A stretch of DNA of 64,000 nucleotides from a virus, in IMG/VR virus record IMGVR_UViG_3300031758_000027, positions 33,051-97,050 of that record; one strand, given 5' to 3'. The translations under genes were made by a program, and so were the position numbers. The notes under the pieces were generated by a model that was given only the letters and a program-made list of their open reading frames with translations, had not been told where the DNA came from and searched no databases. Of the stretch, positions 4,938 to 57,960 are shown piece after piece (the stretch's first letter is position 1; each line of letters starts with the position of its first letter).

Positions 4938-5564
4938 ATGTCAAAACAACTTATAGTAGAATATATGCCATTTCGACCTGTTGGTTCTTTAACGGAATCA
5001 AATGGTTCTGCATATGGAATACCGGGTGGTTTTGTAGTGCAAGGAGTTTTACAAAGAGCAGGAGCTAAAAACCAAAACGGACGAGTATATCCTAAACATA
5101 TATTGCAAAGAGAATGTCAACGTTATCAGCGTGAATATATTGATCAGCATAGAGCATTAGGCGAGTTAGATCATCCAGAATCATCTGTAGTTAACTTGAA
5201 CAATGTATCACATAACGTTTTAAAAATATGGTGGAATGGTGATGATTTACTTGGAACGGTTCAAGTATTAGATACACCTTCGGGAAAAATCCTTAAAGAA
5301 TTATTTCGTGCAGGAATTACTTTGGGAATATCATCACGTGGTTTGGGATCTGTAAAAGAACTACGTAATGAAGGCACTGTAGAAGTACAAGAAGATTTTG
5401 AATTAATTTGTTGGGACTTTGTATCAAATCCATCGACACATGGAGCTTTTATGCGACCAACACGAATGAATGAATCAGTAAATAAAACAACGACAAATAA
5501 ATACGCAAGAGTACATGATGCAATTACATCTATACTCTGTGAAGATGGAAAATGTAGGATATAA
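4938..5564 (+). CDS. 21: Prohead core protease (gp21-like)
   Basis: Serine protease that matures the prohead by cleaving scaffold and capsid proteins, herpes-assemblin-like fold (peptidase family U9/S80). The product is 208 residues, near the T4 length of 212. The catalytic histidine is in GELDHP (H79) and the catalytic serine is in GISSRG (S132 or S133), the two motifs that define the family. The N-terminal region carries the strand GRVYPKHIL typical of these proteases. The C-terminal tail after residue 178 is polar and may be removed by self-cleavage. It sits just before the scaffold and capsid genes that encode its substrates. Confidence 0.93.
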   Translation: MSKQLIVEYMPFRPVGSLTESNGSAYGIPGGFVVQGVLQRAGAKNQNGRVYPKHILQRECQRYQREYIDQHRALGELDHPESSVVNLNNVSHNVLKIWWNGDDLLGTVQVLDTPSGKILKELFRAGITLGISSRGLGSVKELRNEGTVEVQEDFELICWDFVSNPSTHGAFMRPTRMNESVNKTTTNKYARVHDAITSILCEDGKCRI

Positions 5565-22597: not shown

Positions 22598-23614
22598 ATG
22601 TTTTTCGGAAATTCACCATCAGACTTTGGATTTTTACCTCCTAGCTTTAAAGGTGATGTGCAAGTATTTACTCCAACAGGAATAGCTCCTACGCAAACTC
22701 AAAACTGGCAGACTTGGACTAAACCAAAAGGAACATCAATGGTATATATGATGTGTATCGGAGGTGGTGGAGGTGGTGGTGGAGGTTTTTCGGCTGCTAC
22801 TGGCAATGCTAGAGGAGGCGGCGGCGGTGGCGGAAGTGGTGCTATAACTACTTTATTACTCCCTGCTATTTTAATACCAGATTCATTAAAAATTTCAGTA
22901 GGTGCTGGTGGTCAAGGTGGAATATCTTCTAGCCCAGCACTTTCAGGTGGTCCATCGTATATATCATTAGGTTCATCATTAACAACGGGAATTTCAAATC
23001 CTAATTTAATATTACGAGCACTAGGAGGCACTAATGGAGGTACTGGTACGTCATTGCAAGGTGGCGGTGGCGGTGCTGCCGGTACCGTAACAACAATAGC
23101 CGTCCATGGACCTATAAGCAAACTAGGATTCTTCCCAGGTAATGGAAATGCGTTAAATGCAGGATTTGCGGGACAATCTGGAACTGCTGGAGGTGCACAA
23201 ACTGGGGCTAATGGTACGGCTATAACTGCCGTATTTAACGTATCACCGCTTAGCGGAGGTAGTGGCGGTGCGGGAGTTGGTACTACTGCAAACACCGGAT
23301 TTGCTGGGGGGAATATTTCTTTACAGGCAGTAGTGAGTTTTGATGATGGAAATTTTACCCCATCAGCTAATAAAATAACCGGCGGAACGGCAGGTAACGC
23401 GACCATTATTGGAGGAAATGGAAGCGCAGGAATAAAATCACTTAAACCATTTTTAAATACTGGAGGAAGTGGAGGTGGATCTGCTTCTAATCAAGTTGGA
23501 GGTGATGGCGGCATCGGTGGCTACGGCTGCGGCGGAGGTGGAGGTGGTGGCGGCACTACCGGAGGTAGGGGCGGCAATGGTGGTGATGGTTTAGTAATGA
23601 TAGTAAGCTGGTAA
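22598..23614 (+). CDS. Glycine-rich tail-tip / adhesin-like protein, copy 1
   Basis: First of three tandem paralogues, 338 residues. It begins MFFGNSPSDFGFLPPSFKGD, followed by a QNWQTWTKPKGTSMVYMMCIG strand pair, then long glycine runs. The C-terminal half is a polyglycine array ending GCGGGGGGGGTTGGRGGNGGDGLVMIVSW. Polyglycine stretches of this type occur in phage receptor-recognition tips such as Gp38-like adhesins, where they form packed polyglycine II helices. That comparison is structural analogy, not an alignment. High local GC comes from GGN codons. Confidence 0.72.
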   Translation: MFFGNSPSDFGFLPPSFKGDVQVFTPTGIAPTQTQNWQTWTKPKGTSMVYMMCIGGGGGGGGGFSAATGNARGGGGGGGSGAITTLLLPAILIPDSLKISVGAGGQGGISSSPALSGGPSYISLGSSLTTGISNPNLILRALGGTNGGTGTSLQGGGGGAAGTVTTIAVHGPISKLGFFPGNGNALNAGFAGQSGTAGGAQTGANGTAITAVFNVSPLSGGSGGAGVGTTANTGFAGGNISLQAVVSFDDGNFTPSANKITGGTAGNATIIGGNGSAGIKSLKPFLNTGGSGGGSASNQVGGDGGIGGYGCGGGGGGGGTTGGRGGNGGDGLVMIVSW

Positions 23615-23623
23615 GGTAAATAT

Positions 23624-24646
23624 ATGCAATTTGGGAAGTCACCATCAGATTTTGGATTCTTAACATCTCAATTTAACGGGGATGTTCAGATGTTTTTTTC
23701 AACAGGAGTAACATCTACAGCAACACAGAATTGGCAACAATGGATTAAACCAAAAGGTGTTACTATGGTTTATATGCTTTGTATCGGTGCCGGTGGCGGC
23801 GGTGGTGGCGGTAGAAGTGGTGCATCAAATACGACTCGAGGAGGTGGTGGTGGTGCTGGGGGCGCCGGAGTTACTACTTTAATGGTACCTGCGATTTTTC
23901 TTCCAAATGCATTAAAAATTTCAGTAGGTGCTGGTGGAGCTGGCGGCGATGCTAATAACGCCGGTAACTCTGGAAATTCTTCATATATATCGTTAGGTAC
24001 AGGTGTTGGTTCTGGACTAGTAATACCTAACTTAATATTACAAGCAAATCCAAGTACAGGGGGCGGTGCTGGTACAACTGCAGCCGCTGGCGGACTTGGA
24101 GGCGGCGGATCTGCTGTAACAATTGCTTCACTAGGGCCTATAGGAAAGGCAGGATTATTTTCTGCAACAATATTAGCTACAAATGCCGGATATGCAGGTC
24201 AAAATGGTGCCGCCGGCGGTGTCCATACCGGAGCAGTTGGCGCTAGTTTTGCTAATGCATGGGCTTCAATATCAACCACTCCTGGATCGGGCGGCGCCGG
24301 AATTAATACCCCAGCTCAGGCAGGATTTGCTGGTGGAAATATAAGTATATCTGGACCTACAGCTGTAGATTATGCCGGCGGAACAATTACACCTGCTACT
24401 AATCTTTTAGTTGGTGGAACAGCGGGTTCAGCCGGTGTCCCTGGAGGAAACGGTAGTCCTGGAATTAAATTATGGAGGCCATTCTTAAACACCGGTGGCA
24501 CTGGAGGAGGATCTTCTGATAATGCAGCCGGAGGCAATGGTGGTGATGGGGGATATGGTTGTGGTGGAGGTGGAGGCGGAGCTGGTACTACCGGAGGTCG
24601 TGGAGGTAACGGTGGTGATGGTTTAGTAGTAATTATTAGTTGGTAA
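23624..24646 (+). CDS. Glycine-rich tail-tip / adhesin-like protein, copy 2
   Basis: Second paralogue, 340 residues, starting nine bases after copy 1. The N-terminus (MQFGKSPSDFGFLTSQFNGD), the TQNWQQWIKPKGVTMVYMLCIG segment and the GCGGGGGGAGTTGGRGGNGGDGLVVIISW terminus are shared. The middle, about residues 90-290, has diverged in both sequence and loop lengths. Each copy keeps full length and its own start, so gene duplication with diversification fits better than decay. The likely job is host recognition or display of alternative tips. Confidence 0.72.
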   Translation: MQFGKSPSDFGFLTSQFNGDVQMFFSTGVTSTATQNWQQWIKPKGVTMVYMLCIGAGGGGGGGRSGASNTTRGGGGGAGGAGVTTLMVPAIFLPNALKISVGAGGAGGDANNAGNSGNSSYISLGTGVGSGLVIPNLILQANPSTGGGAGTTAAAGGLGGGGSAVTIASLGPIGKAGLFSATILATNAGYAGQNGAAGGVHTGAVGASFANAWASISTTPGSGGAGINTPAQAGFAGGNISISGPTAVDYAGGTITPATNLLVGGTAGSAGVPGGNGSPGIKLWRPFLNTGGTGGGSSDNAAGGNGGDGGYGCGGGGGGAGTTGGRGGNGGDGLVVIISW

Positions 24647-24650
24647 ATGT

Positions 24651-25631
24651 ATGTTTTTTGGAAACTCATCTTCAGATTTTGGTTTTTTACCGTCTCAATT
24701 CAAAGGAGACGTGCAAATGTTTTTTGCATCAGGCAGACCCACATCCGCAACACAGAATTGGCAGACTTGGACTAAACCACGTGGCATTACCATGATGTAT
24801 ATACTCTGCATTGGCAGTGGTGGTGGCGGTGGTGGTGGTCAATCAGCTGCTGGTAACAAAGGCGGTGGTGGTGGTGGATCATGCGGCGGTATTACTTCTA
24901 TCATAATTCCAACAGTTTTTATTCCGGATTCATTAAAAATTTATGTAGGCATCGGCGGTAATGGTGGAGATGCTGGTAATGGGGGTAGTAGCGGTACCTC
25001 AACCTTTGTGACATTAGGAGCAGGATTATCTGGGGGTACAACAGTACCTAGTGTAATAGTATCAGCAAATGGAGGAAACGCGGGCGGCGCTGGTAACGGA
25101 GGAACAGCTGGAGCAGCACCTGGAGCAACAGGTATAGCTAATAATGGTCCAATATCAAAGTTAGGATTTTTTTCAAATACCGGAACTGCCGGTAATGCTG
25201 GATATGCAGGACAAATAGGAACTGCTGGAGGAAGTTCAGGTACTCCAAATGCTGTTAATTTAACTGCACTATGGAATCTAAGTCCTTTAACTGGCGGTAC
25301 AGGTGGAGGCGGTGCTACAAATTCTACCAGCGGAACAGGTGGCGGAATAATCTTACCAGGAGCTGTTGATTCTGAAGGAAGTGGTATTTATCTTCCTAGC
25401 AACACTTTAGCTGGAGGCGCTGCCAACGGCGGTAATGGAAATCCCGGAATCAGATCACTTAAACCGTTTTTACATACCGGAGGTACCGGGGGAGGAAGTA
25501 TTGCATCTGGTACAGGTGGACAAGGAGGAAACGGAGGAATCGGTTGTGGTGGCGGTGGTGGTGGAGCTGGTACTACTGGTGGTAGAGGTGGAAATGGTGG
25601 TGATGGATTAGTATTAATTGTATGTTGGTAA
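24651..25631 (+). CDS. Glycine-rich tail-tip / adhesin-like protein, copy 3
   Basis: Third paralogue, 326 residues, starting four bases after copy 2. It shares the MFFGNSSSDFGFLPSQFKGD start, the QNWQTWTKPRGITMMYILCIG segment and the GCGGGGGGAGTTGGRGGNGGDGL terminus ending in VCW. It is the shortest because of deletions in the middle glycine region. Proline-rich reading frames on the opposite strand here are shadows of the GGN codons. As with its siblings, receptor binding is inferred from composition and from lying at the end of the fibre block. Confidence 0.72.
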   Translation: MFFGNSSSDFGFLPSQFKGDVQMFFASGRPTSATQNWQTWTKPRGITMMYILCIGSGGGGGGGQSAAGNKGGGGGGSCGGITSIIIPTVFIPDSLKIYVGIGGNGGDAGNGGSSGTSTFVTLGAGLSGGTTVPSVIVSANGGNAGGAGNGGTAGAAPGATGIANNGPISKLGFFSNTGTAGNAGYAGQIGTAGGSSGTPNAVNLTALWNLSPLTGGTGGGGATNSTSGTGGGIILPGAVDSEGSGIYLPSNTLAGGAANGGNGNPGIRSLKPFLHTGGTGGGSIASGTGGQGGNGGIGCGGGGGGAGTTGGRGGNGGDGLVLIVCW

Positions 25632-36912: not shown

Positions 36913-38235
36913 ATGATACTGGATCACGCAGAAGAAATCGATGCATTGCTACAATGTATTGCTGATAAGCGTACGCTGATTGTTCCGGTACTGGCCAGTC
37001 CGATACTGCACCCCGTAACAAATACAGTTATTGCATTGTATGTATATACAGAAGATGATGTAGAGCGTCTAGTTCCATTTCGTCATACTGAACAACTAAG
37101 GGGCTTTCCAGAACATTTGTCCCGGTTTTTGCAATTGGAGAATATCTTTGTTCATGACAAAAAGACCTGGCTTCAAATCGGAGGAAATGGGGCTGTATGG
37201 GATATTAAAACATTGTGGTGGTATACTTACGGAGAAGCTTATGATGAATCTCATTATCCTACTGCAGCACATACATTTTATTGGCGGCGGCATTCTGCAT
37301 TGCCACACGTTAATAGCATAGTTCCTTTGCAACAACATTTAGCAATGTGTCAAAAAATTCGTCATTATGCCTGGCCTATGTGTATGAATGCAGAACTATC
37401 AGATTCATATCAAAGATTCAATGCAACATATCCAGACGTATTTGCTGCAATAGAAAGCAACGGATTACAAGTTACAGAAGATTTTAGAATGCCTGATCTA
37501 ATAACAGATGGATTTGTGTATTCACAATACAATTATCATACCGTAACGGGTCGACCTAGTAACGCATACAGAGGTTTTAATTTTGCGGCCATGAACAAAG
37601 AAGATGGTACTAGATCTGCATTTTGTAGTAGATTTCCTAACGGCGCACTTGTTGAAATGGATTTTGATTCATATCACGTTAGATTGATTGCACGGATAAT
37701 TGGATACAAGTTACCAACAACATCTATACATGATTATTTAGGACAATATTATTTCGGTGCATCAGAATTAACTGATGAACAACGCAATGAAAGCAAATCC
37801 ATAACATTTCGTTTGCTGTATGGAGGAATAGATTCAGAATTTTTAACTATTCCATTCTTTCGAGAAGTAAATGATTATGTATATAAACTATGGGCTAAAT
37901 GGAAGGCTTCGGGTTGCATTGAAACACCAATAACACGTAGAAAAATATGCAAAGATGTTGTGCAAAACATGACAGCAAATAAATTGTTTAATTACTATTT
38001 ACAAGCCGTTGAGACAGAAGTATCAGTGCAAAAATTAAAACGATTGCAAACATATTTACAAGACTTTGCAAGTTGCATAATTTTATATACATATGACTCA
38101 ATATTAATTGATGTAGAATATTCGGAAGCCACACGAATATTGCCGGAGATAAAACAGCTGTTAGAAGATGGAGATTTTCCGGTAAAAGTAAAAGTGGGCA
38201 ATATTTATGATAAAATGAAAACTATATCTTTATGA
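36913..38235 (+). CDS. Short family A (Pol I-like) DNA polymerase with degenerate exonuclease region
   Basis: A 440-residue protein. Residues 208-250 hold the family A pattern TVTGRPSN...NFAAMN...GTRSAF. Motif A is DFDSYHVRL (250-258), with His at the usual steric-gate Glu position. Motif B, R291-x3-K295-x3-F299-x3-YG (303-304), is perfect. Motif C is TYDSILID (393-400), keeping the catalytic Asp 395 but with Ser in place of Glu. The first 150 residues look like a decayed 3'-5' exonuclease: the DxE of Exo I is absent. It is additional to the family B polymerase at 51990-54497. Its stop overlaps the start of a nuclease-like gene (ATGA). Repair, fill-in or template-switching synthesis are possible roles. 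Confidence 0.85.
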   Translation: MILDHAEEIDALLQCIADKRTLIVPVLASPILHPVTNTVIALYVYTEDDVERLVPFRHTEQLRGFPEHLSRFLQLENIFVHDKKTWLQIGGNGAVWDIKTLWWYTYGEAYDESHYPTAAHTFYWRRHSALPHVNSIVPLQQHLAMCQKIRHYAWPMCMNAELSDSYQRFNATYPDVFAAIESNGLQVTEDFRMPDLITDGFVYSQYNYHTVTGRPSNAYRGFNFAAMNKEDGTRSAFCSRFPNGALVEMDFDSYHVRLIARIIGYKLPTTSIHDYLGQYYFGASELTDEQRNESKSITFRLLYGGIDSEFLTIPFFREVNDYVYKLWAKWKASGCIETPITRRKICKDVVQNMTANKLFNYYLQAVETEVSVQKLKRLQTYLQDFASCIILYTYDSILIDVEYSEATRILPEIKQLLEDGDFPVKVKVGNIYDKMKTISL

Positions 38236-39488
38236 CCATAGATTCAATACTAGTAGAATGGAGTTACAGATTACCGAAAGGTTATCCTACTAGACCTAAA
38301 GATTATGAAATGTTATATCATGTTATTTTGGAAATGACTGATTTAACGCCATTAGAAGCAAGAGTCGTAGTTAATAAAGCTCAAGGTATAATAACAGAGC
38401 AAGTAGAATTTTCTCAATTAAATTTATCTGATGATTTAACACAACAAATATTAGATCGCTACGAAGATTTGTCCCCGGAAGAAAAAATAGAATTTGATAA
38501 AAATTATCGTCAGCATACTATTGATTCATTTATGTCTACCGGTTATAAAGCATTTACTAAATTTTATGATATATTACCTACCGGCAAATCTGCTGCTGGA
38601 ATGGGTAAAGGTGAAATACAAATATTATTAGCAGTAAAAGATTCACAACCTGGTGGAACGGCATCTCATGATATTATTATGCCTGGCGGAGAATGGGAAG
38701 TTAAAGAAATTGGTAAGCTACCTAGATTAACTAAATCAGGTGAAATGGGTAAAGCTCCCGAAGGAAAAACTTTTCGACCAGCAAAAGCAGGAATGCCAAT
38801 TGATGGTGATTTATTAACATATACCACAAATTTTTTCAATGATATTATAAAACCATTAACTGCAATGGGAGATTCATTTGAAGAATTAAAAGATTTAGTA
38901 GATCCACATTCATGGAAACAACTAAATGATTTGATTCAAGTATTAGAAAAAATATTTGTTCCATTAATGGATAACGTTTCTAGCAATGAATTAAGTTATA
39001 AAAGCGGATGGTCACAACTATATAAAGGGTGGCAACTACTGCATGAAATTTTATGGAAATCTGATTTAGATACTGATATACGAGATACTCGTTTAACAAT
39101 AAAAACTGGAAATCAAACAATATCATATTGGATAACATCTGATGATTTTGATAAAATACAACGAGGTTCTGGCGATGAAACTGAAGTTTCTATTAAAATA
39201 GGTCAACAAATTAGTAATGAAACTAATAATGCTGCAATTTGGTTTAATAAATTAAAACATAATGATTTAGTACTAGATCCAAACATTATGATTAAATTAT
39301 TAAATACAACAAAAAATAAATTCTTTGAAGAAATTTTAGGACTTATTGCATATGATGTAAATAATCCTGGAATTCCAATTGTAACTATAGCATCAGAATG
39401 GTCAATTATAGGATTATCTCAAGGAATGTGGGTATTTGGATTAAAATCTGCATATCCTAAATATGAATTTATACAACTTCAATCTTAA
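38232..39488 (+). CDS. PD-(D/E)XK nuclease-like protein coupled to the polymerase gene
   Basis: A 418-residue protein whose ATG overlaps the polymerase stop. Near the N-terminal third is a plausible PD-(D/E)XK core: Glu128 in GKGEIQILL, Asp147 in SHDIIM, then Glu156-x-Lys158 in WEVKEIG, with correct spacing and hydrophobic strands. A helical middle (about 200-290) and a C-terminal alpha/beta region with YWITSDDFDKIQRG follow. I do not recognise a named family. The shared transcript and overlap suggest the nuclease and polymerase act on the same DNA. The motif is seen; nuclease activity is inferred. Confidence 0.65.
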   Translation: MTIDSILVEWSYRLPKGYPTRPKDYEMLYHVILEMTDLTPLEARVVVNKAQGIITEQVEFSQLNLSDDLTQQILDRYEDLSPEEKIEFDKNYRQHTIDSFMSTGYKAFTKFYDILPTGKSAAGMGKGEIQILLAVKDSQPGGTASHDIIMPGGEWEVKEIGKLPRLTKSGEMGKAPEGKTFRPAKAGMPIDGDLLTYTTNFFNDIIKPLTAMGDSFEELKDLVDPHSWKQLNDLIQVLEKIFVPLMDNVSSNELSYKSGWSQLYKGWQLLHEILWKSDLDTDIRDTRLTIKTGNQTISYWITSDDFDKIQRGSGDETEVSIKIGQQISNETNNAAIWFNKLKHNDLVLDPNIMIKLLNTTKNKFFEEILGLIAYDVNNPGIPIVTIASEWSIIGLSQGMWVFGLKSAYPKYEFIQLQS

Positions 39489-39497
39489 GGACATGAT

Positions 39498-39884
39498 TTG
39501 AAAACACAATTACTTTGCACATTTGCACATCGAGGCGATTTAAATATAATCACCGAATACATACAAACAAATTACGAAATTCCAGAACACCGAATATTTG
39601 TGTTTTCTAATGCCGACGTAACTGATAATTTATATTGCACTTACAATGCATTTGATTCCGGCCGCAGAGGGCAAAACACAATAAGTATACATCGCAAAAA
39701 AGAAACCAATACATTGTATACAGTTAATGCTCTTAATGAAGTGATACGTGCAGTAAATAATGGAGTTTTAGATAAAACATATCAATTGGATTGGTCTAGA
39801 TATCAAAATTCATTCATACTTACGGATGATGCTGGATATCGAATTATCAATTTAATGTTCTTTAAGAAAGTTACTTGGAGTTGA
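39498..39884 (+). CDS. Unrecognised protein, 128 aa
   Basis: Starts at TTG 39498, seven bases after AAGGA. No in-frame ATG is nearby. The protein is alpha/beta, opening MKTQLLCTFAHRGDLNIITEYIQTNYEIPEHRIFVFSNAD. The first strand, helix and second strand resemble a small Rossmann-like or nucleotide-binding fold, but no signature motif is present. It follows the polymerase/nuclease pair by nine bases and may belong to the same unit. Function unknown. Confidence 0.68.
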   Translation: MKTQLLCTFAHRGDLNIITEYIQTNYEIPEHRIFVFSNADVTDNLYCTYNAFDSGRRGQNTISIHRKKETNTLYTVNALNEVIRAVNNGVLDKTYQLDWSRYQNSFILTDDAGYRIINLMFFKKVTWS

Positions 39885-39905: not shown

Positions 39906-40226
39906 ATGATGAAAAAATTAAAAGATTTATTAGCTGAAAATATGCATCGATTTGGTACTAAAAACATCAATGAGCTTGATACATATGTAGCCAATGCAAC
40001 TGGTCCATTAAATCAAAAAGAGATTGAAATATACGATCATATTTTAAATGCTTTAGAAACTTGTATACCAAATACTCCGGCAGATGTTATTGATGATTTT
40101 ACGGATGAATACAATAAAAATTTTTATTTAAAAGAATTCAAACAAATTATACAAACCATACAAAAACTTGCTGATCATATTGAACAAGATATGTCTAATC
40201 AGGATTCGCTGTACAGTGAATCTTGA
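39906..40226 (+). CDS. Small protein with LAENMxRFxTKN N-terminal tag, 106 aa
   Basis: Begins MMKKLKDLLAENMHRFGTKNINELD and continues as an acidic helical protein (EIEIYDHILNALETCI, FKQIIQTIQKLADHIEQD). The first 25 residues match the start of the next gene (LAENM-R-RF-TKN-NE), while the remainders are unrelated. This looks like a shared targeting or processing tag. It has a late promoter motif, so it is probably a virion or packaged protein. The family is not recognised. Confidence 0.72.
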   Translation: MMKKLKDLLAENMHRFGTKNINELDTYVANATGPLNQKEIEIYDHILNALETCIPNTPADVIDDFTDEYNKNFYLKEFKQIIQTIQKLADHIEQDMSNQDSLYSES

Positions 40227-40254: not shown

Positions 40255-40755
40255 ATGATGAAAAAAAATATCTTAGCAGAAAATATGCGTAGATTCAAAA
40301 CTAAGAATCTTAACGAAGCTGATTTAAGTGATCTAGAAAATAAATTAGGATTTGACAGCGGAGCTAATCGAGATCCACGTACTGGTAACTTAATGGTAGA
40401 TCCTAAAAATTTAAAGATCATGATAAACAGAGCTGATTATGATACTAATATATCTGGTATCGTTAGCATGACATTTCAAGGTTCTCAATTAGCCGATAAA
40501 AATACATTCCAAGATATCATTGATGATATCAAACAAGATATTGAAAGTCAAAACGACCCAACCGGAGCATATGATCAAACTCGTTTAGTATCAGATATTG
40601 AATTTGATTGTGAATTGAAAGCCGGCTCGGATAAAATTAATTTTACAGCTGTATTTGAAGAAGATGGTGATTTGAAAAGTGTAGACATTCAAGATGAAGC
40701 TATTGCACAGAAATATGGTATAACTGTCGAAACAATATACGACTTTTTATTTTAA
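40255..40755 (+). CDS. Small protein with LAENMxRFxTKN N-terminal tag, 166 aa
   Basis: Begins MMKKNILAENMRRFKTKNLNEADL, the same tag as the upstream 106-residue protein. The rest is acidic and beta-rich, with SGIVSMTFQGSQLADKNTFQDIIDDI, IEFDCELKAGSDKINFTAVFEEDG and a C-terminal helix. There is no catalytic motif. The gene is 28 bases after its neighbour and probably co-transcribed. If the tag directs proteins into the prohead, this would be an injected or core protein. That is inference. Confidence 0.72.
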   Translation: MMKKNILAENMRRFKTKNLNEADLSDLENKLGFDSGANRDPRTGNLMVDPKNLKIMINRADYDTNISGIVSMTFQGSQLADKNTFQDIIDDIKQDIESQNDPTGAYDQTRLVSDIEFDCELKAGSDKINFTAVFEEDGDLKSVDIQDEAIAQKYGITVETIYDFLF

Positions 40756-40850: not shown

Positions 40851-41624
40851 ATGGCTTTAAATTTAGATGCTATTAAAGCAAAGCTGAATCAGTTGAACAA
40901 AGCTGATGACAAAAAACAAAATTTGTGGAAACCTGAAGCAGGTAAGACACGTATCCGCATTGTACCGTATGTACATCGCAAAGACAATCCATTTCTAGAA
41001 TTGTATTTTCATTACGACATTGGTAAAAAATCCATGTTGTCACCAATTACATTTGGAAATGCTGATCCAATCGTAGAGTTTTCAGACAAACTAAAAAAGA
41101 CTGGCGATAAAGATGAATGGATCATGGGTCGTAAAATCGAACCTAAAATGAGAACTTATGTTCCGGTTATTATTCGTGGTAAAGAAGCAGAAGGAGTTAA
41201 ATTCTGGGGTTTTGGAAAAACAATTTACACAGAACTTCTTTCAATTATTTCTGATCCTGATTATGGTGATATTACGGATTTGATGAATGGTCGTGATATT
41301 GATGTAGAATTTGTTCCCGCAGAAGGAGGAGCATATCCTAAGACTACGATTCGTGTTAAGCCAAATACACAACCAGCAACTGAAGACAAAGCAATTGCTG
41401 AAAAAATCATGAATCAACCAGAAATTACTGATTTATTTCCTGAGCCAACTTATGAAGAATTGGAATATGCATTGCAAGAATGGATGAATCCAGAAAATGC
41501 TGATTCTGATGTAGCTGCAGATGAAGAAGAAGTAAAAGCAGAACCAGCACCAGCAAAGGCATCAAAGCCAGTAGCAGGTAAAGTTGACGATGTTGCTTCA
41601 GCATTCAATGATCTTTTCAATTAA
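40851..41624 (+). CDS. 32: Single-stranded DNA-binding protein (gp32-like)
   Basis: Coats ssDNA during replication and recombination and contacts gp43, UvsX and gp41. The product is 257 residues (T4: 301). The N-terminal cooperativity region (LDAIKAKLNQLNK) is followed by the OB-fold core: WKPEAGKTRIRIVPY near 26-40, ELYFHYDIGKKSMLSPITFG and VKFWGFGKTIYTELLSII near 115-132. An acidic C-terminal tail is followed by a short basic patch and ASAFNDLFN. The Cys/His zinc site of T4 gp32 is missing: the protein has no cysteine in the core. A strong AAAAGGAG ribosome-binding site precedes the ATG. UvsX follows. Confidence 0.9.
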   Translation: MALNLDAIKAKLNQLNKADDKKQNLWKPEAGKTRIRIVPYVHRKDNPFLELYFHYDIGKKSMLSPITFGNADPIVEFSDKLKKTGDKDEWIMGRKIEPKMRTYVPVIIRGKEAEGVKFWGFGKTIYTELLSIISDPDYGDITDLMNGRDIDVEFVPAEGGAYPKTTIRVKPNTQPATEDKAIAEKIMNQPEITDLFPEPTYEELEYALQEWMNPENADSDVAADEEEVKAEPAPAKASKPVAGKVDDVASAFNDLFN

Positions 41625-41634
41625 GGAGTTATAG

Positions 41635-42798
41635 ATGGCAAAGAGTAAAAGCAAACTAGAACTGGAAGATTCGTTAGCAAATACATTAGCAGAAAGTATC
41701 AACAAGCAATTTAAAGGACAAGCTCTTAAAACAGCTTTCTTTCTAGAAGGCGATGCAGATTCACCAAGCAATGTATCAGAATGGATTTCATCTGGTTGCG
41801 ATATGCTCGATTTGGCAATTTCAAACCGACCGAACGGAGGATTCCCAGTAGGTCGGATAACTGAAGTTACCGGATTAGAAGCATCCGGAAAATCATTGCT
41901 TGTATCACACGTAGCTGCTGAAACACAAAAGAAAGGCGGGTTAGCAGTTTATATTGATACAGAAGCGGCATCAAGTGCTGAATTTATGTCGGCAATTGGA
42001 ATTGATTTAAAATCAATGCTTTATGTTCCATTGGAAACAGTTGAAGAAATATTCGAAACCATTGAAACAATTGTTGAACAAGTACGTAAGTCAGACAAAG
42101 ATCGTTTAGTTACAATCATTGTAGATTCAATAATGGGTGCATCAACAAAAATTGAAATGGCGGCTGAATATGACAAAGATGGTTATGCTACAAGTAAATC
42201 AATCATTCTATCCAAAGCAATGCGTAAAGTAACCAATTGGATTGCACGTGAGAGAATTTGTTTGATTATGACTAATCAGCTTCGTACCAAATTAGGTGTA
42301 TCATTTGGAGATGCATGGACTACATCGGGTGGTAAAGCAATTCCATTTCACGCATCGGTTAGATTGCGTCTTAAAAATACCGGAATGATCAAAGCAAAAA
42401 TTGATGGCGTTGATCAAGTAGTCGGAAGCAAGACAGAAGTGCAAGTTGTTAAGAATCGTATGGGACCACCACATCGCAAAATTAATTACGATATCTATTA
42501 TGATTCAGGTATTGATAATTACGGCGGTTGGTTGGAAACTATGAAGAAATATAGTTTAGTTAAACAATCTGGAGCACATTATACATTGGATGATGTTGAT
42601 ATTGAAACCGGAGAAACATTTGGCGAAATTAAATTTCAATCAAAGACTTTTGTTGAAAAGATAATTAATCAACTAGAAATAAAAAATCGATTGTATCAAA
42701 GAATTTGCGATGCTTACATTTTTAAATATCAAGCAGGTATTGATGGGGGTATTGACGATGTAATAATCGATGAATCAGTTATAGATGAAGAAGGCTAA
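41635..42798 (+). CDS. uvsX: UvsX / RecA-like recombinase
   Basis: Strand-exchange ATPase for recombination-dependent replication and repair. The product is 387 residues. Walker A is GLEASGKS near residues 79-86, and Walker B is VTIIVDSIMG near 160-168. The L2-like region TNQLRTKLGVSFGDAWTTSGGKAIPFHASVRLRL near 220-255 is typical of RecA/UvsX. The C-terminal 60 residues are acidic. AAGGAG lies upstream. The gene follows gp32 by ten bases, and its stop overlaps the start of rnh (TAATG), a coupling that keeps DNA-repair functions together. Confidence 0.93.
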   Translation: MAKSKSKLELEDSLANTLAESINKQFKGQALKTAFFLEGDADSPSNVSEWISSGCDMLDLAISNRPNGGFPVGRITEVTGLEASGKSLLVSHVAAETQKKGGLAVYIDTEAASSAEFMSAIGIDLKSMLYVPLETVEEIFETIETIVEQVRKSDKDRLVTIIVDSIMGASTKIEMAAEYDKDGYATSKSIILSKAMRKVTNWIARERICLIMTNQLRTKLGVSFGDAWTTSGGKAIPFHASVRLRLKNTGMIKAKIDGVDQVVGSKTEVQVVKNRMGPPHRKINYDIYYDSGIDNYGGWLETMKKYSLVKQSGAHYTLDDVDIETGETFGEIKFQSKTFVEKIINQLEIKNRLYQRICDAYIFKYQAGIDGGIDDVIIDESVIDEEG

Positions 42799-43862
42799 TG
42801 AATAAGTATCAACAGCTATTCAAAAAGTTACAAGAAGAAAAAGTAAACGGTCCGTCAGATGTCAATGATCATATCATGGTATTTGACGGATTGAATACTT
42901 TTATCAGAGCTTTTGGAGCAACTCCGTCCACAAATGAAGATGGAGATCACATTGGAGGAATTACAGGATTCCTTTTTTCTATTGGTAAAGCAGTACGAGA
43001 TTTTCGTCCTAGTAGATGCGTTATTGTGTTTGATGGCAGAGGTGGTAGTGCTCGTCGTAGAAAAATACATGGCGATTACAAAGCAAATCGAGCCAATAAA
43101 ACTAGATTGCGTAGACATGATCATCAACAATTTGCTTCTATTGAAGATGAACAAGAAGCAATGCGCTGGCAATTTAGTAGATTGGTATCATATCTAGATA
43201 ATTTACCAGTTACCTTTTTAGCAATCGATGGAATTGAAGCAGACGATACAATTGCTTATATTGCACAAATGTATAAAGACATTAGCAAAAAAATAACTAT
43301 AGTATCTACGGATCGAGATTTTTATCAATTGGTTGATAACAAGTTGCAAGTTTGGTCACCTATCAAAAAGAAAATGTATGATGAAGCTGCAATTTTAGAA
43401 GAGTTTGGGGTACATCCCAATAACTATGTAGTTTATAGAACATTTACTGGTGATGCTTCGGATAATATTTCCGGGGTAGATGGTATTGGACCTAAAACCA
43501 TATTAAAGACATTTCCAGAATTAGCAGATCCTACGGAATTTACTTTGGATGATTTGCAACAAAAATGCAATGATAAACGCATTCTTAAGGAAGGTAAAAT
43601 GTATCAAAAAGTTTTAGATAACTACGATACCGTTGAAACTAATTATCGATTAATGAATATCAAATTGTTGAATATTCCTGCGCAGAATTGTAGCACAATC
43701 CGAGGAATTATGAATCAATCTATTCCTATGCTTAATCGACAAGAATTTCAACGCTTGTTTATGGAAGATAAAATGTGGAATGCAATGAAGAATCTTCCAG
43801 ACTGGTTGACAAATACTTGGCTATCTTTAAGTGCCTTCGCTCAACAAACACATAAAAAATAA
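42798..43862 (+). CDS. rnh: RNase H / 5'-3' exonuclease of FEN family (T4 rnh-like)
   Basis: Removes RNA primers and adjacent DNA from Okazaki fragments. The product is 354 residues (T4: 305). Metal-binding acidic motifs are in order: VFDGLNTFIRA (30s), VIVFDGRGGSARRRKIHGDYKANR near 74-98, IDGIEADDTIAYIA near 141-154 and STDRDFYQL near 168-176. A helix-hairpin-helix GDASDNISGVDGIGPKTILK follows near 218-237. The ATG overlaps the UvsX stop. A second, remote FEN function is not seen elsewhere, so this is the primer-removal enzyme. Confidence 0.93.
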   Translation: MNKYQQLFKKLQEEKVNGPSDVNDHIMVFDGLNTFIRAFGATPSTNEDGDHIGGITGFLFSIGKAVRDFRPSRCVIVFDGRGGSARRRKIHGDYKANRANKTRLRRHDHQQFASIEDEQEAMRWQFSRLVSYLDNLPVTFLAIDGIEADDTIAYIAQMYKDISKKITIVSTDRDFYQLVDNKLQVWSPIKKKMYDEAAILEEFGVHPNNYVVYRTFTGDASDNISGVDGIGPKTILKTFPELADPTEFTLDDLQQKCNDKRILKEGKMYQKVLDNYDTVETNYRLMNIKLLNIPAQNCSTIRGIMNQSIPMLNRQEFQRLFMEDKMWNAMKNLPDWLTNTWLSLSAFAQQTHKK

Positions 43863-51772: not shown

Positions 51773-52005
51773 TTGAAGCATTAGGATGGGTCTGCACGGC
51801 ATTGGTATTGATTGGTTTCATTGTCAATGCCCGCGGACATTTTCTTCCTGCTTTGATTTGGTGGATAGTAGGAGATATTGGTTGGATTGTATATGATATT
51901 TACATAAATAATATTAGTCATATGGTCCTGGGATTAGTTATAATAGCAATAAACACATACGGTATCATCAGATACTATAAAAATAAAAAATGTATCAAGC
52001 AATAG
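51769..52005 (+). CDS. Small membrane protein, three predicted segments, 78 aa
   Basis: ATG overlaps the groES stop (ATGA). Three hydrophobic segments lie at about residues 5-21, 27-46 and 51-68: LGWVCTALVLIGFIV, LPALIWWIVGDIGWIVYDIY and HMVLGLVIIAINTYGIIRYY. A basic tail follows. The pattern resembles small PnuC-like or lipid-linked inner membrane proteins, but no signature confirms either. It overlaps the start of the DNA polymerase gene. Function unknown. Confidence 0.7.
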   Translation: MIEALGWVCTALVLIGFIVNARGHFLPALIWWIVGDIGWIVYDIYINNISHMVLGLVIIAINTYGIIRYYKNKKCIKQ

Positions 52006-54497
52006 GTTACGACAAGAAAAACGGCATTATGCACGTTTGGGATGATGAATTAGGACATCAAAAGTTTCCATTTCAACCATATGGATATTTACCAAATACA
52101 CAAGGACAATATCAATCATTAGACGGCACTAGATTAGATCGTGTTGCTGGTAATCACAGAGATAATCCTAAATCATATGAATCTGATTTAAATGAAGAAG
52201 TTAGAACTCTAATTGATTTGTATTATGAATCAGATGAGCCTTCAAAAGGACATAGAGATTTCTTTTTTGACATTGAAACAGCAAAAGATGAAAATGGTTA
52301 TAGTACAATTGATGATGTACGTACATCAATTACTTCAATTGCATACTATGATAAAGTCGGCAAAGATCGTCGAGTATTAATTTTAGATGAATTAGGCCGC
52401 ATAAAAGACCGTGAAATACAAGGTGACGGCTATACTTTAGAGATATTTCGAGATGAAAGAGACTTATTAACTAGATTTATTAATATATTCGCAGAAATAC
52501 AACCTACAGTAATTACAGGCTGGAATACTGATGGATATGATATTCCGTATTTGATAGGTCGTTGCAAAAAAGTATTAGGTGCACAATCCATTAAAAAATT
52601 ATCTCCCGCAGGAGTAGTTGAACAAAGCAAATCCGGTAAGTGGAAAATTTTAGGTGTATCTAGTTTAGATTATTTAAAATTATATAAAAACTTTACATAT
52701 ACAGAACTTCCTAATTATCGATTAGATACAGTAGCACAATTTGAATTAGGTCGAGGCAAAGTTGAATACGAAGGTGATTTAGATACACTATTTACACAAG
52801 ATATTCACAAGTTTGCTTATTACAATATGACTGACGTTGATCTGGTTTATGAATTAGACGACAAGTTGCAAATGTTGAATTTAGCACGTTCAATTTGTCA
52901 CAAAGGTCACGTTCCATATGAAGATGTATATTATGCATCTAAATATCTAGATGGTGCTGCAATTGTAGATTTAAAGCGAAACGGATTAGTTGCGCCTAAC
53001 AAACAGTTCCGATTCATTGAAGAAGAAACAATAGCTGATGCATTAGCAGGAGCATATGTAAAAGCACCGGTACCTGGATTATATAAATGGATCTATGACT
53101 TGGACTTAACATCATTGTATCCTAGTATCATCATGACATTGAATATATCTCCAGAAACAAAAATTGGAGTTGTATCAAATTGGAATCAGGAATGTATGAT
53201 GCGAGACGAAGCAACTCAGGTCACGATGAATGGAAAAACAATTCCAGATATTAGATCTTGGTTAGTTGAAAATAATTACAGTATTGCAAGTAACGGTACA
53301 GTCTATAGAAATGATCAACGCGGATTTCTTCCAACGATTCTTGAAAAATGGTTTGATGAACGTGTAATATTCAAAGACAAACGAGATACATTTGCAGTAG
53401 GTACTGAGGAGTATAAATTCTATGATGCATTGCAGTTAACGCAAAAAGTATTGCTCAATTCATTTTATGGAGTATTAGGATTAAAAACATTTCGTTTTCA
53501 TGATCTAGATAATGCAGGTGCTATTACAGCAGTAGGGCAAAGCATAATTAAATTTTCTGGTCGTGTTATTAATAATCAATATCAACGAGAATTAGGCACG
53601 GATCATTTTGTTAATGCATCTGGAGATAAAGCAGAGTTTGCATTTTACACGGATACAGATTCAACCTTTTGTAGCAGCGAACCTTTAATCAAACATAGAT
53701 TTCCAGGATGCGATGTTGAAGATGAACAATTCATGATTGAACAAACAAATGCAATTGCATCTGAGATTCAAGGCACTGTTAATACAATGTATAATCAATA
53801 TGCAAAAGTATTTCATAATACCGAAAAACATAGATTCCAAATTAAGCAGGAATACATTGCAAAATCTGGTTTATGGATTGCAAAGAAACGATATGCACAA
53901 TGGGTTATTTTCAAAGAAGGAAAACCTACAGATAAATTGGATATAAAAGGATTAGATGTTGTAAGATCAAGTTTTCCGGCTGACTTTAAAAAGATCATGA
54001 AAGAAACATTGTGGTTTATTCTTAAAGGCAAAGACAAGCAAACAACTTCTACATTGATACATGATTTCAAAAGTAATATTAAAAAATCAGAAGTATTGAA
54101 TATTATGAAGAATTCAAGTGTTAAAGAATTGTCAAAATATATCAAAGGCCGAAAACCATTTTCTGGATATATCAAAGGATCCACTGCACACGTTAAAGCT
54201 GCAATCAATTTCAATGATATGTTAACACAATTAAATACAGATGTGTTACCTATATCAGATGGAGAAAAAATTAAATGGGGTTACTTGCTTAACAATCCAT
54301 ATGGCTTTGAAACTATAGCATTACGAGGTTATCAAGACCCACCAGAGATTGTAGCCTTTGCAGAACAGTATATTGATCATAACAAAATGTTTTCAAGTGA
54401 GTTAAGCAATAAGTTTGATGATTTTTATTCTGCAATGGGATGGGGCGCATTACCGGAGAATAATAATGCAAATCGATTCTTTTCATTTGGAAAATAG
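51990..54497 (+). CDS. 43: Replicative DNA polymerase, family B (gp43-like)
   Basis: Main replicase with proofreading, 835 residues (T4: 898). Exo I is FFFDIETAKD (91-100), Exo II is TGWNTDGYDIPYLIGR near 172-187, and Exo III is YNMTDVDLVYELD near 274-286. Motif A, DLDLTSLYPSI, lies near 370-380. Motif B, KVLLNSFYGVLG, lies near 485-496. Motif C, YTDTDS, lies near 553-558. KKRYAQWV near 631 follows. All catalytic acids are present, and there is no intein or split. The start at 51990 overlaps the membrane-protein gene by 16 bases. Confidence 0.96.
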   Translation: MYQAIGYDKKNGIMHVWDDELGHQKFPFQPYGYLPNTQGQYQSLDGTRLDRVAGNHRDNPKSYESDLNEEVRTLIDLYYESDEPSKGHRDFFFDIETAKDENGYSTIDDVRTSITSIAYYDKVGKDRRVLILDELGRIKDREIQGDGYTLEIFRDERDLLTRFINIFAEIQPTVITGWNTDGYDIPYLIGRCKKVLGAQSIKKLSPAGVVEQSKSGKWKILGVSSLDYLKLYKNFTYTELPNYRLDTVAQFELGRGKVEYEGDLDTLFTQDIHKFAYYNMTDVDLVYELDDKLQMLNLARSICHKGHVPYEDVYYASKYLDGAAIVDLKRNGLVAPNKQFRFIEEETIADALAGAYVKAPVPGLYKWIYDLDLTSLYPSIIMTLNISPETKIGVVSNWNQECMMRDEATQVTMNGKTIPDIRSWLVENNYSIASNGTVYRNDQRGFLPTILEKWFDERVIFKDKRDTFAVGTEEYKFYDALQLTQKVLLNSFYGVLGLKTFRFHDLDNAGAITAVGQSIIKFSGRVINNQYQRELGTDHFVNASGDKAEFAFYTDTDSTFCSSEPLIKHRFPGCDVEDEQFMIEQTNAIASEIQGTVNTMYNQYAKVFHNTEKHRFQIKQEYIAKSGLWIAKKRYAQWVIFKEGKPTDKLDIKGLDVVRSSFPADFKKIMKETLWFILKGKDKQTTSTLIHDFKSNIKKSEVLNIMKNSSVKELSKYIKGRKPFSGYIKGSTAHVKAAINFNDMLTQLNTDVLPISDGEKIKWGYLLNNPYGFETIALRGYQDPPEIVAFAEQYIDHNKMFSSELSNKFDDFYSAMGWGALPENNNANRFFSFGK

Positions 54498-55682: not shown

Positions 55683-56711
55683 ATGAGAATATTTTTAGTT
55701 GACATAGAATCAGTACCAACTCGTTATACCTGCGAATGGAAGACTCATGTACCAAAATTATTAGAAGAAGCTGGATTTGAAGTAATTGTTGTAGAGGGAG
55801 ATTTGAATATTCCAGAAGCAACCACTCCAGGTGCATTCTTAAATTTTGGTGGTACTAACATGTATAAAGCAAAGCAAGTTCATTCTTTAAGTTACATGTT
55901 TACCCGAGGACATATTCAGCCAGGAGATCATATTATTTTTACAGATGCATGGCATCCGGGTATTATCAATGTAAAATACATGAGCGAACTCCTAAATATT
56001 CCCGTTGTAACGCACGGACTATGGCACGCGGGGTCATATGATCCAAATGATTTTTTAGGTCGTCTCGTAGGAGGAAAATCGTGGATACGACACGCAGAAC
56101 AATCATTTATATCTGCATTTGATTTCAATTGGTTAGCAACACAAGCTCACTTTGATTTAATGAGTAAAACATATGATATATCATTCAATTTAACATTTCA
56201 TCGTACGGGCTGGCCAATGGAATATACCAAAAATATAATTCAACCAAAAGCTTGGGCAGAAAAAGAAAACATCATAGTGTTTCCGCACCGTATAGCTCCT
56301 GAGAAACGATTAGACTTATTTCAAGAATTAGCAGCTCGTCCAGAATTAGCACATTATCAATTCTGTGTAGCAATGGAAATGAATTTAACTAAACCAGAAT
56401 ATCATGAATTGCTTCGACGAGCTAAGTTTGCAGTATCATTTGCAGATCAAGAAACATTAGGTATATCAATGTATGAATCAGCTTGTGCAGGAGCATGTCC
56501 GATTGTGCCAGATAGATTATCATACACTGAAATGTATTCGCCGATGTTTAAACGTGCGAATAGTATAGATGATGTGGTTCAAGCAATATTAGAATATGAA
56601 AATGCTGATATAACAACTAATATTAATCAACTGGTTACAGCATTACATAAAAACTTTTTTTCAGCAACAAAATTAATTAATAAACTAAAGGAATACAATG
56701 AGCGAAGCTAA
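55683..56711 (+). CDS. GT-B glycosyltransferase (GT4-like), overlapping the DpdA-like gene
   Basis: ATG 55683 starts MRIFLVDIESVPTRYTCEW. The product is 342 residues. The C-terminal donor domain has FPHRIAPEKRLDLFQELAAR near 220-240 and QETLGISMYESACAGACPIVP near 260-280 with the E-x7-E motif of GT4 enzymes. The N-terminal domain with THGLWHAGSYDP would bind the acceptor. Its last 14 bases overlap the DpdA-like gene, implying coupled translation. It could glycosylate DNA bases, as T4 glucosyltransferases do, or a virion or host glycan; the overlap favours a base. Confidence 0.8.
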   Translation: MRIFLVDIESVPTRYTCEWKTHVPKLLEEAGFEVIVVEGDLNIPEATTPGAFLNFGGTNMYKAKQVHSLSYMFTRGHIQPGDHIIFTDAWHPGIINVKYMSELLNIPVVTHGLWHAGSYDPNDFLGRLVGGKSWIRHAEQSFISAFDFNWLATQAHFDLMSKTYDISFNLTFHRTGWPMEYTKNIIQPKAWAEKENIIVFPHRIAPEKRLDLFQELAARPELAHYQFCVAMEMNLTKPEYHELLRRAKFAVSFADQETLGISMYESACAGACPIVPDRLSYTEMYSPMFKRANSIDDVVQAILEYENADITTNINQLVTALHKNFFSATKLINKLKEYNERS

Positions 56712-57960
56712 AAGATTCATATACTTTCCATCATTATCTGCAGGATCTATGGTTTCTGCATTTAAGAAAGATATGAAATTTTCAAATGGTGACCCTGTAA
56801 AGTTTTTTGACTCTCGTTATCCAGAAGATTGGAGACATCCATACTTTTTGATTACGGCAGGACATCATTACAAAAAAATGGATTTTCGAGATCAACTAGG
56901 ATTAGAAAAAGATGTATTAGTATTTGGAGATTCTGGAGGATATCAGATTGCAACTGGTGCTTTGCCGTATAGTAATGAACTTCGTGAAAAGATTTTTCAT
57001 TGGTTAGAAGCAAACAGCGATGTTGCAGCAAATTTAGATATACCACCTAAAACTAAATATAGAAATCAATTTGCAACATGTGCAGATATTAGTTATGATA
57101 ACTTTGCTTGGTTTGAAAAACATCAAAGCGGTAAGACTAAGTTTTTGAATATGTTGCAAGGATCGAATGCTGAGGAATATACATGGTGGTATCATAAATT
57201 CAAGCATTTTGATTTTCAAGGATGGGCGATTGGTGGTCCACAAAAATTAGTTGATTTCATGTTTGCATTATCATTAATGCTTAAAGAAGGAGAATTTGAA
57301 AAAACTCGTAATGAATATCTTCACTTGTTAGGAATTAGTAAAATTTCCGATTTCTTTATTTTAGCAACAATGCAAAAATTAATGAATAAACATTACGGAG
57401 GAAGAATTACAGTAACAACGGATTCATCATCACCAGGACAATATCCAGTATTTGGAACGTATCTTCATTCAACAAATTTCAAGACACAAACATTCTCTGA
57501 ATTGTATTTTCCAAAGAATGCTGAGTATCGACGTAAGTCACATATCAAACAAGGCAAAACGGGTGATGTAACTGGAATTGATTTGACACAACATGTACCT
57601 TGTCAATTAGGATGTCCAGCTTGTGCTGATTTTACATATGAATATCTCGGCGGTAAGACGGATGCTGGATTAGATAGATATTCACAAGAAGCTATGCCTA
57701 GAATGGTTGTTCATAATACCCATTTGTATGTGAATGCTGCAAAAGAAATAAATCAATTAGTTGATAGTCACGTTGAATTGTTAGAAACAGTAGTTCCTAA
57801 AGATTTATATGATGTGATTTTATCATTGCATGAAATGTTTGCAGATCCAGATGCAGCACCACAAGTATACGAAAAGTATATTAAAACATATAAAAAATTC
57901 GGAGGTGATTCAATTTCAACTACCGATGCAGAAAACTTTAATAAATTCTTTAAATTTTAA
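56698..57960 (+). CDS. dpdA: TGT-like DNA transglycosylase (DpdA family)
   Basis: Related to tRNA-guanine transglycosylase; phage DpdA proteins swap guanine in DNA for a 7-deazaguanine. The product is 420 residues. VFGDSGGYQIATG (75-87) carries the general-base Asp78. MLQGSNAEE (152-160) and GWAIGGPQK (175-183) are TGT-barrel motifs. TTDSSSPGQ places the likely nucleophile at Asp242. The zinc site is Cys302, Cys306 and Cys309 with His339 in VVHNTHLYV. It is in the same genome as folE, queD and queE, and no tRNA gene or tRNA target is seen. DNA modification is therefore the best reading; activity on tRNA cannot be excluded. Confidence 0.85.
   Translation: MSEAKRFIYFPSLSAGSMVSAFKKDMKFSNGDPVKFFDSRYPEDWRHPYFLITAGHHYKKMDFRDQLGLEKDVLVFGDSGGYQIATGALPYSNELREKIFHWLEANSDVAANLDIPPKTKYRNQFATCADISYDNFAWFEKHQSGKTKFLNMLQGSNAEEYTWWYHKFKHFDFQGWAIGGPQKLVDFMFALSLMLKEGEFEKTRNEYLHLLGISKISDFFILATMQKLMNKHYGGRITVTTDSSSPGQYPVFGTYLHSTNFKTQTFSELYFPKNAEYRRKSHIKQGKTGDVTGIDLTQHVPCQLGCPACADFTYEYLGGKTDAGLDRYSQEAMPRMVVHNTHLYVNAAKEINQLVDSHVELLETVVPKDLYDVILSLHEMFADPDAAPQVYEKYIKTYKKFGGDSISTTDAENFNKFFKF

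Follow-up and report, generated by a model that had tools for sequence, protein, structure and literature searches.

A divPolA1 polymerase gene and an overlapping, exchangeable nuclease-like gene with a candidate capsid-targeting leader in a T4-like phage

A stretch of 64,000 nt of viral DNA (hereafter the window; positions 33051-97050 of the 97-kb IMG/VR record IMGVR_UViG_3300031758_000027, part of the genome of a T4-like phage) contains two open reading frames (ORFs) that share four bases: the ATGA at the end of the first (36913-38235, + strand) is also the start of the second (38232-39488, + strand). The first encodes a short family A DNA polymerase of 440 amino acids (aa), and the second a protein of 418 aa with a PD-(D/E)XK-like core. 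The initial annotation, which placed this overlap correctly, interpreted the genes as a coupled cut-and-fill pair. Does the overlap reflect such a partnership, or do the two proteins have separate jobs? We favor, with moderate confidence, the second answer: a polymerase of the divPolA1 type and a tagged, capsid-loaded nuclease that are neighbors with different functions.

Relatives were collected by IMG/VR scans that retained the best 80 of 168, 439 and 312 relatives and under-sample distant members. In one of these scans, tblastn confirmed 439 stretches with a polymerase relative, and the best 80 were looked at. One locus (L001) is identical to the window, and three contigs are present twice (L002/L085, L045/L086 and L069/L084), which slightly inflates the pair counts in the identity, class and tree analyses given below. 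A homologue of the downstream gene, which we call the partner, is located 3′ of the polymerase gene in all 76 loci, out of a best 80, whose sequence continues for over 100 nt beyond that gene. In 66 of them the two genes overlap by four bases, in 3 they lie within 10 nt of each other, and in 7 a gene is inserted between them. The conserved pairing that the initial annotation had proposed to look for is therefore present.

The partner itself is conserved very differently along its length. Alignments reveal a better-conserved N-terminal tag (residues 1-52, ILxEWxYRLPKGYP..., 38232-38387, + strand), and the exchanged stretch behind it is bounded by a conserved gene of 128 aa (39498-39884, + strand), as seen by sequence comparison. 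Identities were calculated from complete ORFs only, leaving out L081 and L093-L096 (88 polymerases, 81 partners and 80 next genes, with all three in 71 loci). Compared pairwise, these 71 loci have median identities of 70.9% in the polymerase, 63.5% in residues 1-52 of the partner, 14.3% in its remainder and 82.0% in the next gene. The clearest case is that of L016 and L015, whose polymerases are 99.5% and next genes 98.4% identical, with 61.5% identity in the tag and 13.3% in the C-terminal part. Their DNA matches at 99.4% over 9,072 bp and then breaks sharply 103 nt (about codon 34) into the partner gene; the remainder of that gene is unmatched, and the match, now at 95.9%, resumes where the next gene starts. 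Since L014 and L012, which are contigs from other samples, show the same break with respect to L016, a single chimeric assembly is unlikely to be responsible.

The C-terminal parts of the 81 partners fall into five classes with 44, 22, 11, 3 and 1 members. On the polymerase tree (77 rows), at least 16 class changes are required, where 4 would suffice if each class had arisen once. Shuffling the class labels 200 times, which was done for this tree only, gave a mean of 30.6 and a minimum of 24 changes, so the classes partly follow the polymerase lineage and have yet been swapped repeatedly. The corresponding numbers of changes are 20 on the tree of the next gene (75 rows), 17 on that of gp32 (68 rows) and 14 on that of UvsX (50 rows). 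Different nucleases have probably been placed after the tag when related phages recombined. That near-identical phages differ by the wholesale replacement of a nuclease-like part behind a conserved leader is the less expected aspect of this locus.

Exchange between near-identical flanks is also what a homing-type selfish endonuclease, adapted to the interval between the polymerase gene and gp32, might produce, and genes of this kind do occur here. Inserted at the polymerase stop are HNH-like genes in L025 (7194-7748), L044 (9323-9874) and L056 (6468-7019), and GIY-YIG-like genes in L062 (9317-9958), L070 (9317-9955) and L077 (9317-9961); judged by their HNH and GIY-YIG motifs, these six inserts are presumably homing endonucleases. 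The 3′ end of the polymerase gene has also been replaced in L062 and L070. It is nevertheless very improbable that the partner is such an element, because it is present in every testable locus with no empty site seen, carries a conserved tag, has a different location in Immutovirus, and shows a pattern of allele swaps instead of gain and loss. As a separate observation, a 212-aa ORF with the leader MKRFFKKQLKRFNTKN and chance-level family matches only is located between the polymerase and nuclease genes of L059 (3962-4600).

The situation in Immutovirus bears directly on the proposed partnership. Its gp078 has a related tag and the core motif, and, near the terminase, is separated from the polymerase gene by 116 kb of the record. 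In all 21 IMG/VR loci of the Immutovirus type (L210-L215 have identical match values and are near-copies), the tagged gene lies between gp079-like and gp077-/terminase-like genes. These 21 relatives of gp078 keep its first 41-49 residues, which in six of them are the only part that matches. Among 11 records compared, the tag has one match each in 10 and none in Mel-JY01, although the latter contains the polymerase. The idea of the tag as a repeat domain shared by numerous proteins of a single phage was rejected, as there is one match in each of these 10 records. In LR756508, an uncultured phage of 484 kb, the tag follows divPolA1 and is continued by a strongly acidic C-terminus (L096 13385-14461) in which no nuclease motif was seen.

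These results allow the cut-and-fill proposal to be weighed, in which DNA trimmed or nicked by the nuclease is filled in by the overlapping polymerase during repair, end processing or recombination. The overlapping frames, the downstream position of the partner in all testable loci, and the proximity of the pair to gp32, UvsX and FEN would fit such a couple. However, polymerases that are up to 99.5% identical precede partners with C-terminal parts that are 13% identical, so the nuclease part is swapped without a change in the polymerase; the two genes are far apart in Immutovirus; the polymerase of Mel-JY01 exists without a tag match; and the tagged gene of LR756508 ends in an acidic region. 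We therefore regard a functional couple as quite unlikely, and this part of the initial annotation is not upheld. Because the nuclease is exchanged without the polymerase, resides elsewhere in Immutovirus and is found among variable genes with leaders of their own (see below), we interpret the overlap as a matter of position and not of partnership.

The next question is what the partner encodes. The initial annotation had recognized E128, D147 and E156-x-K158 (38613-38705, + strand) in PD-(D/E)XK order, which the alignment corroborates. Among 41 representatives of 78 partner sequences of at least 330 aa, clustered at 93%, E128, D147 and K158 are invariant (41/41) in sequences as little as ~20% identical to that of the window, and position 156 has Glu in 33 sequences and Ser in the other 8. 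Class-specific motif expressions written from single members matched 43/44, 22/22, 5/11, 3/3 and 1/1 of the sequences in their classes. The structural model of the partner (predicted local distance difference test, pLDDT, 82.2) has a helix at residues 128-134 and strands at 139-143, 146-150 and 153-160, and this helix-strand-strand-strand order fits a PD-(D/E)XK core. The E - D - (E/S)xK order is likewise shared with that superfamily. As a side observation, class-2 alleles (L026, L071 and similar ones) have some 100 extra residues, at about positions 60-170 of the partner, between the tag junction and the core.

In contrast to known members of the superfamily, the partner matches no nuclease family or PDB structure. 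Searches of Pfam and NCBIfam gave no family for it and PHROG gave nothing at E ≤ 0.001, and the partner proteins reached no named nuclease family in Pfam, NCBIfam or PADLOC; the strongest family matches, such as those to DUF3850 (E 0.0003, L220) and AbiEii (E 0.0053, L070), are below curated cut-offs or near chance. In BFVD, Foldseek aligned it over 452 columns with the 412-aa protein A0A6J5PPA7 of an uncultured Caudovirales phage (E 6.8e-16), at 21% identity and a TM-score of 0.47, and this protein is annotated as uncharacterized. Several results weigh against a nuclease: Foldseek of the model versus the PDB gave nothing at E ≤ 0.001, the best VIA-align Z score was 5.0, to helical proteins, with nothing above it, and the Glu of the ExK motif is replaced by Ser in 8 of the 41 representatives. 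Such Ser residues, together with the acidic cargo of LR756508 and the fact that the T4 internal protein IPI is described as an anti-restriction protein (PMC9026906, PMC3012670), would suit a C-terminal part that has lost nuclease activity and acts as a DNA-binding or anti-defence internal protein. This is unlikely in view of the invariance of E128, D147 and K158 down to ~20% identity, and we consider it very likely that the partner is a nuclease by nature.

If the polymerase is not its partner, what does the tag do? The cleavage motif of gp21, the prohead protease of T4, has the form L/I-x-E, in line with 'LIE-9' in PMC9026906, and a candidate prohead-protease site (I54-T55-E56 followed by Gln; 38391-38399, + strand) is present directly behind the tag as a junction motif. 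In 52 distinct sequences of the window group, residues 52-63 contain [LIV]xE in 52, [LI]xE in 48 and [LI]xE[AQSGN] in 44. Stretches of 12 residues drawn after residue 75 of the same proteins are expected to give 6.3, 4.4 and 0.9 matches, respectively, with maxima of 18, 14 and 7 in 20,000 draws. Shuffling residues 52-75 gives an expectation of 4.2 for [LI]xE[AQSGN] and a maximum of 12 in 5,000 shuffles. All 25 junctions that are less than 60% alike contain [LIV]xE. These counts indicate a strong enrichment that falls short of proof, since the junction window and the leader pattern were picked with the sequences in view and relatives do not count as independent draws. A gp21-type prohead protease is encoded in the window (4938-5564, + strand; Peptidase_S77, E 2.2e-32) and in 10 of the 11 records.

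The genes next to the partner point in the same direction. The island between the 128-aa gene and gp32 is variable, and 39 proteins were told apart in 68 loci by crude ungapped identity, with a few being shifted copies and four HNH-like ORFs set aside. An [LI]xE ending at residues 7-15 is present in 35 of these 39 proteins versus 7 of 46 other genes of the window, and the leaders are often of the form MIKLKNILAENMRRFGTKNLNE. In the window, the island encodes two variable small proteins with capsid-targeting-like leaders, MMKKLKDLLAE-N (39906-40226, + strand) and MMKKNILAE-N (40255-40755, + strand); a match of the former to BrxB (E 0.0026) is below the curated cut-off or near chance. T4 IPII and IPIII start with MKTYQEFIAE-A. 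The resemblance to T4 capsid-targeting sequences is a general one, judged by eye, and is closer for these neighboring leaders than for the tag. Immutovirus gp003, gp076 and gp077 also have a common leader, of their own kind. Further HNH-like ORFs were noticed in the variable island of L027, L069, L070 and L077.

The known system that comes closest is that of the T4 internal proteins. Head proteins of T4 are reported to have propeptides of 10-19 residues that are removed by gp21, and for IPIII the first 10 residues are described as sufficient for targeting, with residues 8 and 10 governing processing (PMC9026906). The internal proteins of T-even phages are described as a highly diverse set in which the targeting sequence alone is conserved, and a foreign nuclease has reportedly been encapsidated by means of that sequence (PMC3012670). 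The window locus shares with IPI, IPII, IPIII and Alt, as these sources portray them, a conserved N-terminal leader, a diverse mature part and a set that varies among relatives; in T4 the leader is removed by gp21, and the window phage encodes a protease of that type. It differs in its leader of ~55 aa and in a putative cargo with a PD-(D/E)XK-like core. Moreover, whereas IPI protects against a restriction nuclease, the cargo would here be the nuclease itself. Among the papers listed by a literature search, there was no natural T4-like case of a nuclease that is packaged or ejected.

Several observations weigh against capsid loading, besides the choice of patterns after inspection and the extent to which the class labels follow the polymerase tree (16 changes versus a shuffled mean of 30.6). 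In the Immutovirus-type sequences compared, the tag mostly ends in V-x-E followed by E or K, which fits the motif less well; the tag's own early L/I/V-x-E precedes an invariant Trp; the tag, at ~55 aa, is longer than the leaders of 10-19 residues in T4; and it differs from the MIKLKNILAEN leader of its neighbors. Propeptides of more than 100 residues are described for giant phages (PMC5694885). The tag could instead dock onto another intracellular protein, such as the terminase, the clamp or a core protein, with an unpackaged nuclease degrading the DNA of the host or of rivals inside the cell. The conservation of ~45-55 aa, the location of the gene next to terminase genes in the Immutovirus group and a diversification that suits conflict with hosts or other phages are compatible with this. 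We nonetheless find it rather doubtful, since the junction motif, the variable neighbors with leaders and the gp21-type protease fit packaging better.

By analogy with the T4 internal proteins, then, the nuclease is probably an interchangeable cargo loaded into the capsid, and its delivery from there is, in our judgment, slightly favored. The tag would probably bring the nuclease into the prohead core, the gp21-type protease would remove the tag after the [LIV]xE site, and the head would carry the nuclease and deliver it together with the DNA. We infer packaging, cleavage, ejection and DNA cutting; what is observed is the tag, the C-terminus exchanged between near-identical flanks, the junction motif, the protease gene and the leader-bearing neighbors. 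A delivered nuclease might serve to attack host DNA, defence loci or rival phages, and endonuclease-based interference by phages is said to have precedent in published work. A bolder proposal, which we put forward tentatively, is that T4-like phages of this kind possess a set of interchangeable restriction-like nucleases. A propeptide common to them would bring these into the head, the protease would release them, and they would be delivered along with the genome, striking host, defence-island or rival-phage DNA at the very onset of infection. If true, the locus would be an offensive counterpart of the diverse anti-restriction internal proteins of T4. If the leader is a capsid-targeting propeptide, it would be a natural cargo tag, and swappable nucleases delivered from the virion would be a testable element of phage-host and phage-phage conflict.

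The phage's own DNA would be spared, perhaps by base modification, as queuosine-pathway genes are present in the same genome. The window genome contains genes for a GTP cyclohydrolase (FolE-like) and for QueE- and QueD-like proteins. A 420-aa ORF (56698-57960) is weakly TGT-like, with one phage match annotated as a TGT domain and TIGR00432 at E 0.0099; the Pfam TGT family was unmatched in G000, and its weak matches in G001 and G007 stayed below the cut-off. Together, these genes are a hint of possible 7-deazaguanine DNA modification.

What, then, is the polymerase? The 440-aa protein matches Pfam DNA_pol_A (E 1.6e-9, 37.6 bits, cut-off 34.3) and a PHROG DNA polymerase family (E 5.5e-14), and a profile of an alignment of 58 polymerases (A4; 28 of the window group, including that of the window, and 30 Immutovirus-like) matches Klenow chains in the PDB (E 1.3e-10). 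Its AlphaFold2 model (pLDDT 90.3) superimposes on Bst polymerase with Z 27.5 and a root-mean-square deviation of 3.5 over 406 aligned residues, spanning positions 1-434. It has 440 aa versus 579 for the Bst chain, and the thumb is included in this whole-chain comparison. The short family A polymerase predicted by the initial annotation is thus confirmed. In the structure predictions that it had proposed, the polymerase shows the Klenow/Bst fold, and the nuclease model has a fitting order of elements without matching a solved structure. Using tblastn, the polymerase of Immutovirus immuto was found at 30.2% identity (E 6e-52, 90% of the query aligned), and that of Mel-JY01 at 25.5% (E 6e-36), although the latter was unmatched by Pfam DNA_pol_A. 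No relatives of the LR756508 polymerase were found in the IMG/VR scan, and none of alignment A1 in a scan of bacterial and archaeal genomes.

Both catalytic Asp residues and motifs A (D250...H255), B (K295...Y303-G304) and C (YDS, 394-396) of the family A palm are present, and D250, D252, H255, K295, F299, Y303, G304, Q364, E367, Y394 and D395 are invariant in the 58 aligned polymerases. Motif B had been called perfect, which holds for K295, F299 and Y303-G304 and not for R291, which is Tyr in 33 of the 58. In the Klenow profile alignment, H255 is at the position of the steric-gate Glu, which we take to be E710 in Pol I numbering, and residue 396 at that of the motif C Glu. As suspected from the window sequence, both Glu residues are lost: His replaces the first in 58/58, and the second is Ser in 28/58, Ala in 30/58 and Glu in none. 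The fixed acidic residues D252 and E367 might compensate for the lost Glu. These fixed changes put the nucleotide selectivity of divPolA1 within direct reach of testing.

Since the Bst alignment starts at residue 1, the N-terminus is predicted to have the exonuclease fold, as the initial annotation had proposed. It had also described this domain as lacking the metal ligands, and strand 21-27 of the window polymerase is indeed without an acidic residue; the description does not extend to all relatives, as 25 of the 58 have an acidic residue (Glu or Asp) in column 24 of this first exonuclease strand, which makes a loss of every exonuclease residue less certain. DivPolA1 is probably a compact family A enzyme that lacks proofreading.

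The name divPolA1 was given by Yutin et al. in 2024 to polymerases of 14 phages, including immuto, each of which is reported to carry also a regular family A, B or C polymerase (PMC11348598). We are almost certain that the 440-aa protein belongs to this group. In that description, divPolA1 is a short family A enzyme with a conserved palm, with a regular polymerase alongside, encoded upstream of replication genes, and with an inactive exonuclease and a truncated thumb (PMC11348598). The window group differs in its family B replicase and its ~30% identity to Immutovirus, and the consulted parts of that paper are silent on the His steric gate and on the tagged nuclease (PMC11348598). A literature search on the name gave this paper and its preprint (PMC11348598). 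A literature search gave no paper on a second phage DNA polymerase with both families and none on Mel-JY01. The enzyme was thus already known from 14 phages, and many more relatives in IMG/VR are added here.

The complete family B gp43 that the initial annotation had noted in the same phage is present (51990-54497, + strand; phrog_262, E 3e-178), alongside clamp and clamp loader genes. A family B polymerase is encoded in 10 of the 11 records, and the eleventh has a full-length family A polymerase instead. Immutovirus and four related contigs have a second, full-length family A polymerase (open frame of 778 aa in Immutovirus), which excludes divPolA1 as the sole replicase of Immutovirus. Family B was not detected in Immutovirus (no PF00136 in W01; phrog_262 in 0/6 records, two of which are copies of immuto), nor was DNA polymerase III alpha (0/5). 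The type of replicase therefore differs across records while divPolA1 stays. A DnaG-type primase was found in 10 of the 11 records, with the exception, G005, being a fragment of 86.6 kb; divPolA1 was accordingly dismissed as a primase replacement, and primer synthesis by it would be unnecessary.

Gp32-like, UvsX-like and FEN-like genes (40851-43862, + strand; Pfam and PHROG matches) adjoin the polymerase-nuclease pair, and gp32, UvsX, FEN and gp41 follow divPolA1 in the same order in Immutovirus. Because the FEN gene is located two genes after gp32, a gap-filling role as part of a split Pol I is the simplest reading. DivPolA1 would be kept beside whichever replicase the phage uses, adjoining gp32-UvsX-FEN-gp41, and would fill gaps, for example after primer removal by FEN or in recombination repair. 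An accessory gap-filling polymerase is thus the most likely function; its fold, its two catalytic Asp residues, its occurrence alongside a regular polymerase and the gene order are established, and from these we infer activity and gap filling.

Besides relatives of gp32, UvsX, FEN and gp41 (Pfam/PHROG matches), the window encodes a portal protein, a major head protein and a tail sheath protein according to library matches. A family search with the 128-aa protein that follows the partner gave no match above chance, and look-alikes of it were seen in LR756508 (L096 14833-15222) and as Immutovirus gp002 (L094 1346-1801). Finally, three consecutive genes at 22598-25631 of the window, encoding proteins of 338, 340 and 326 aa with similar starts, are apparently a tandem triplication.

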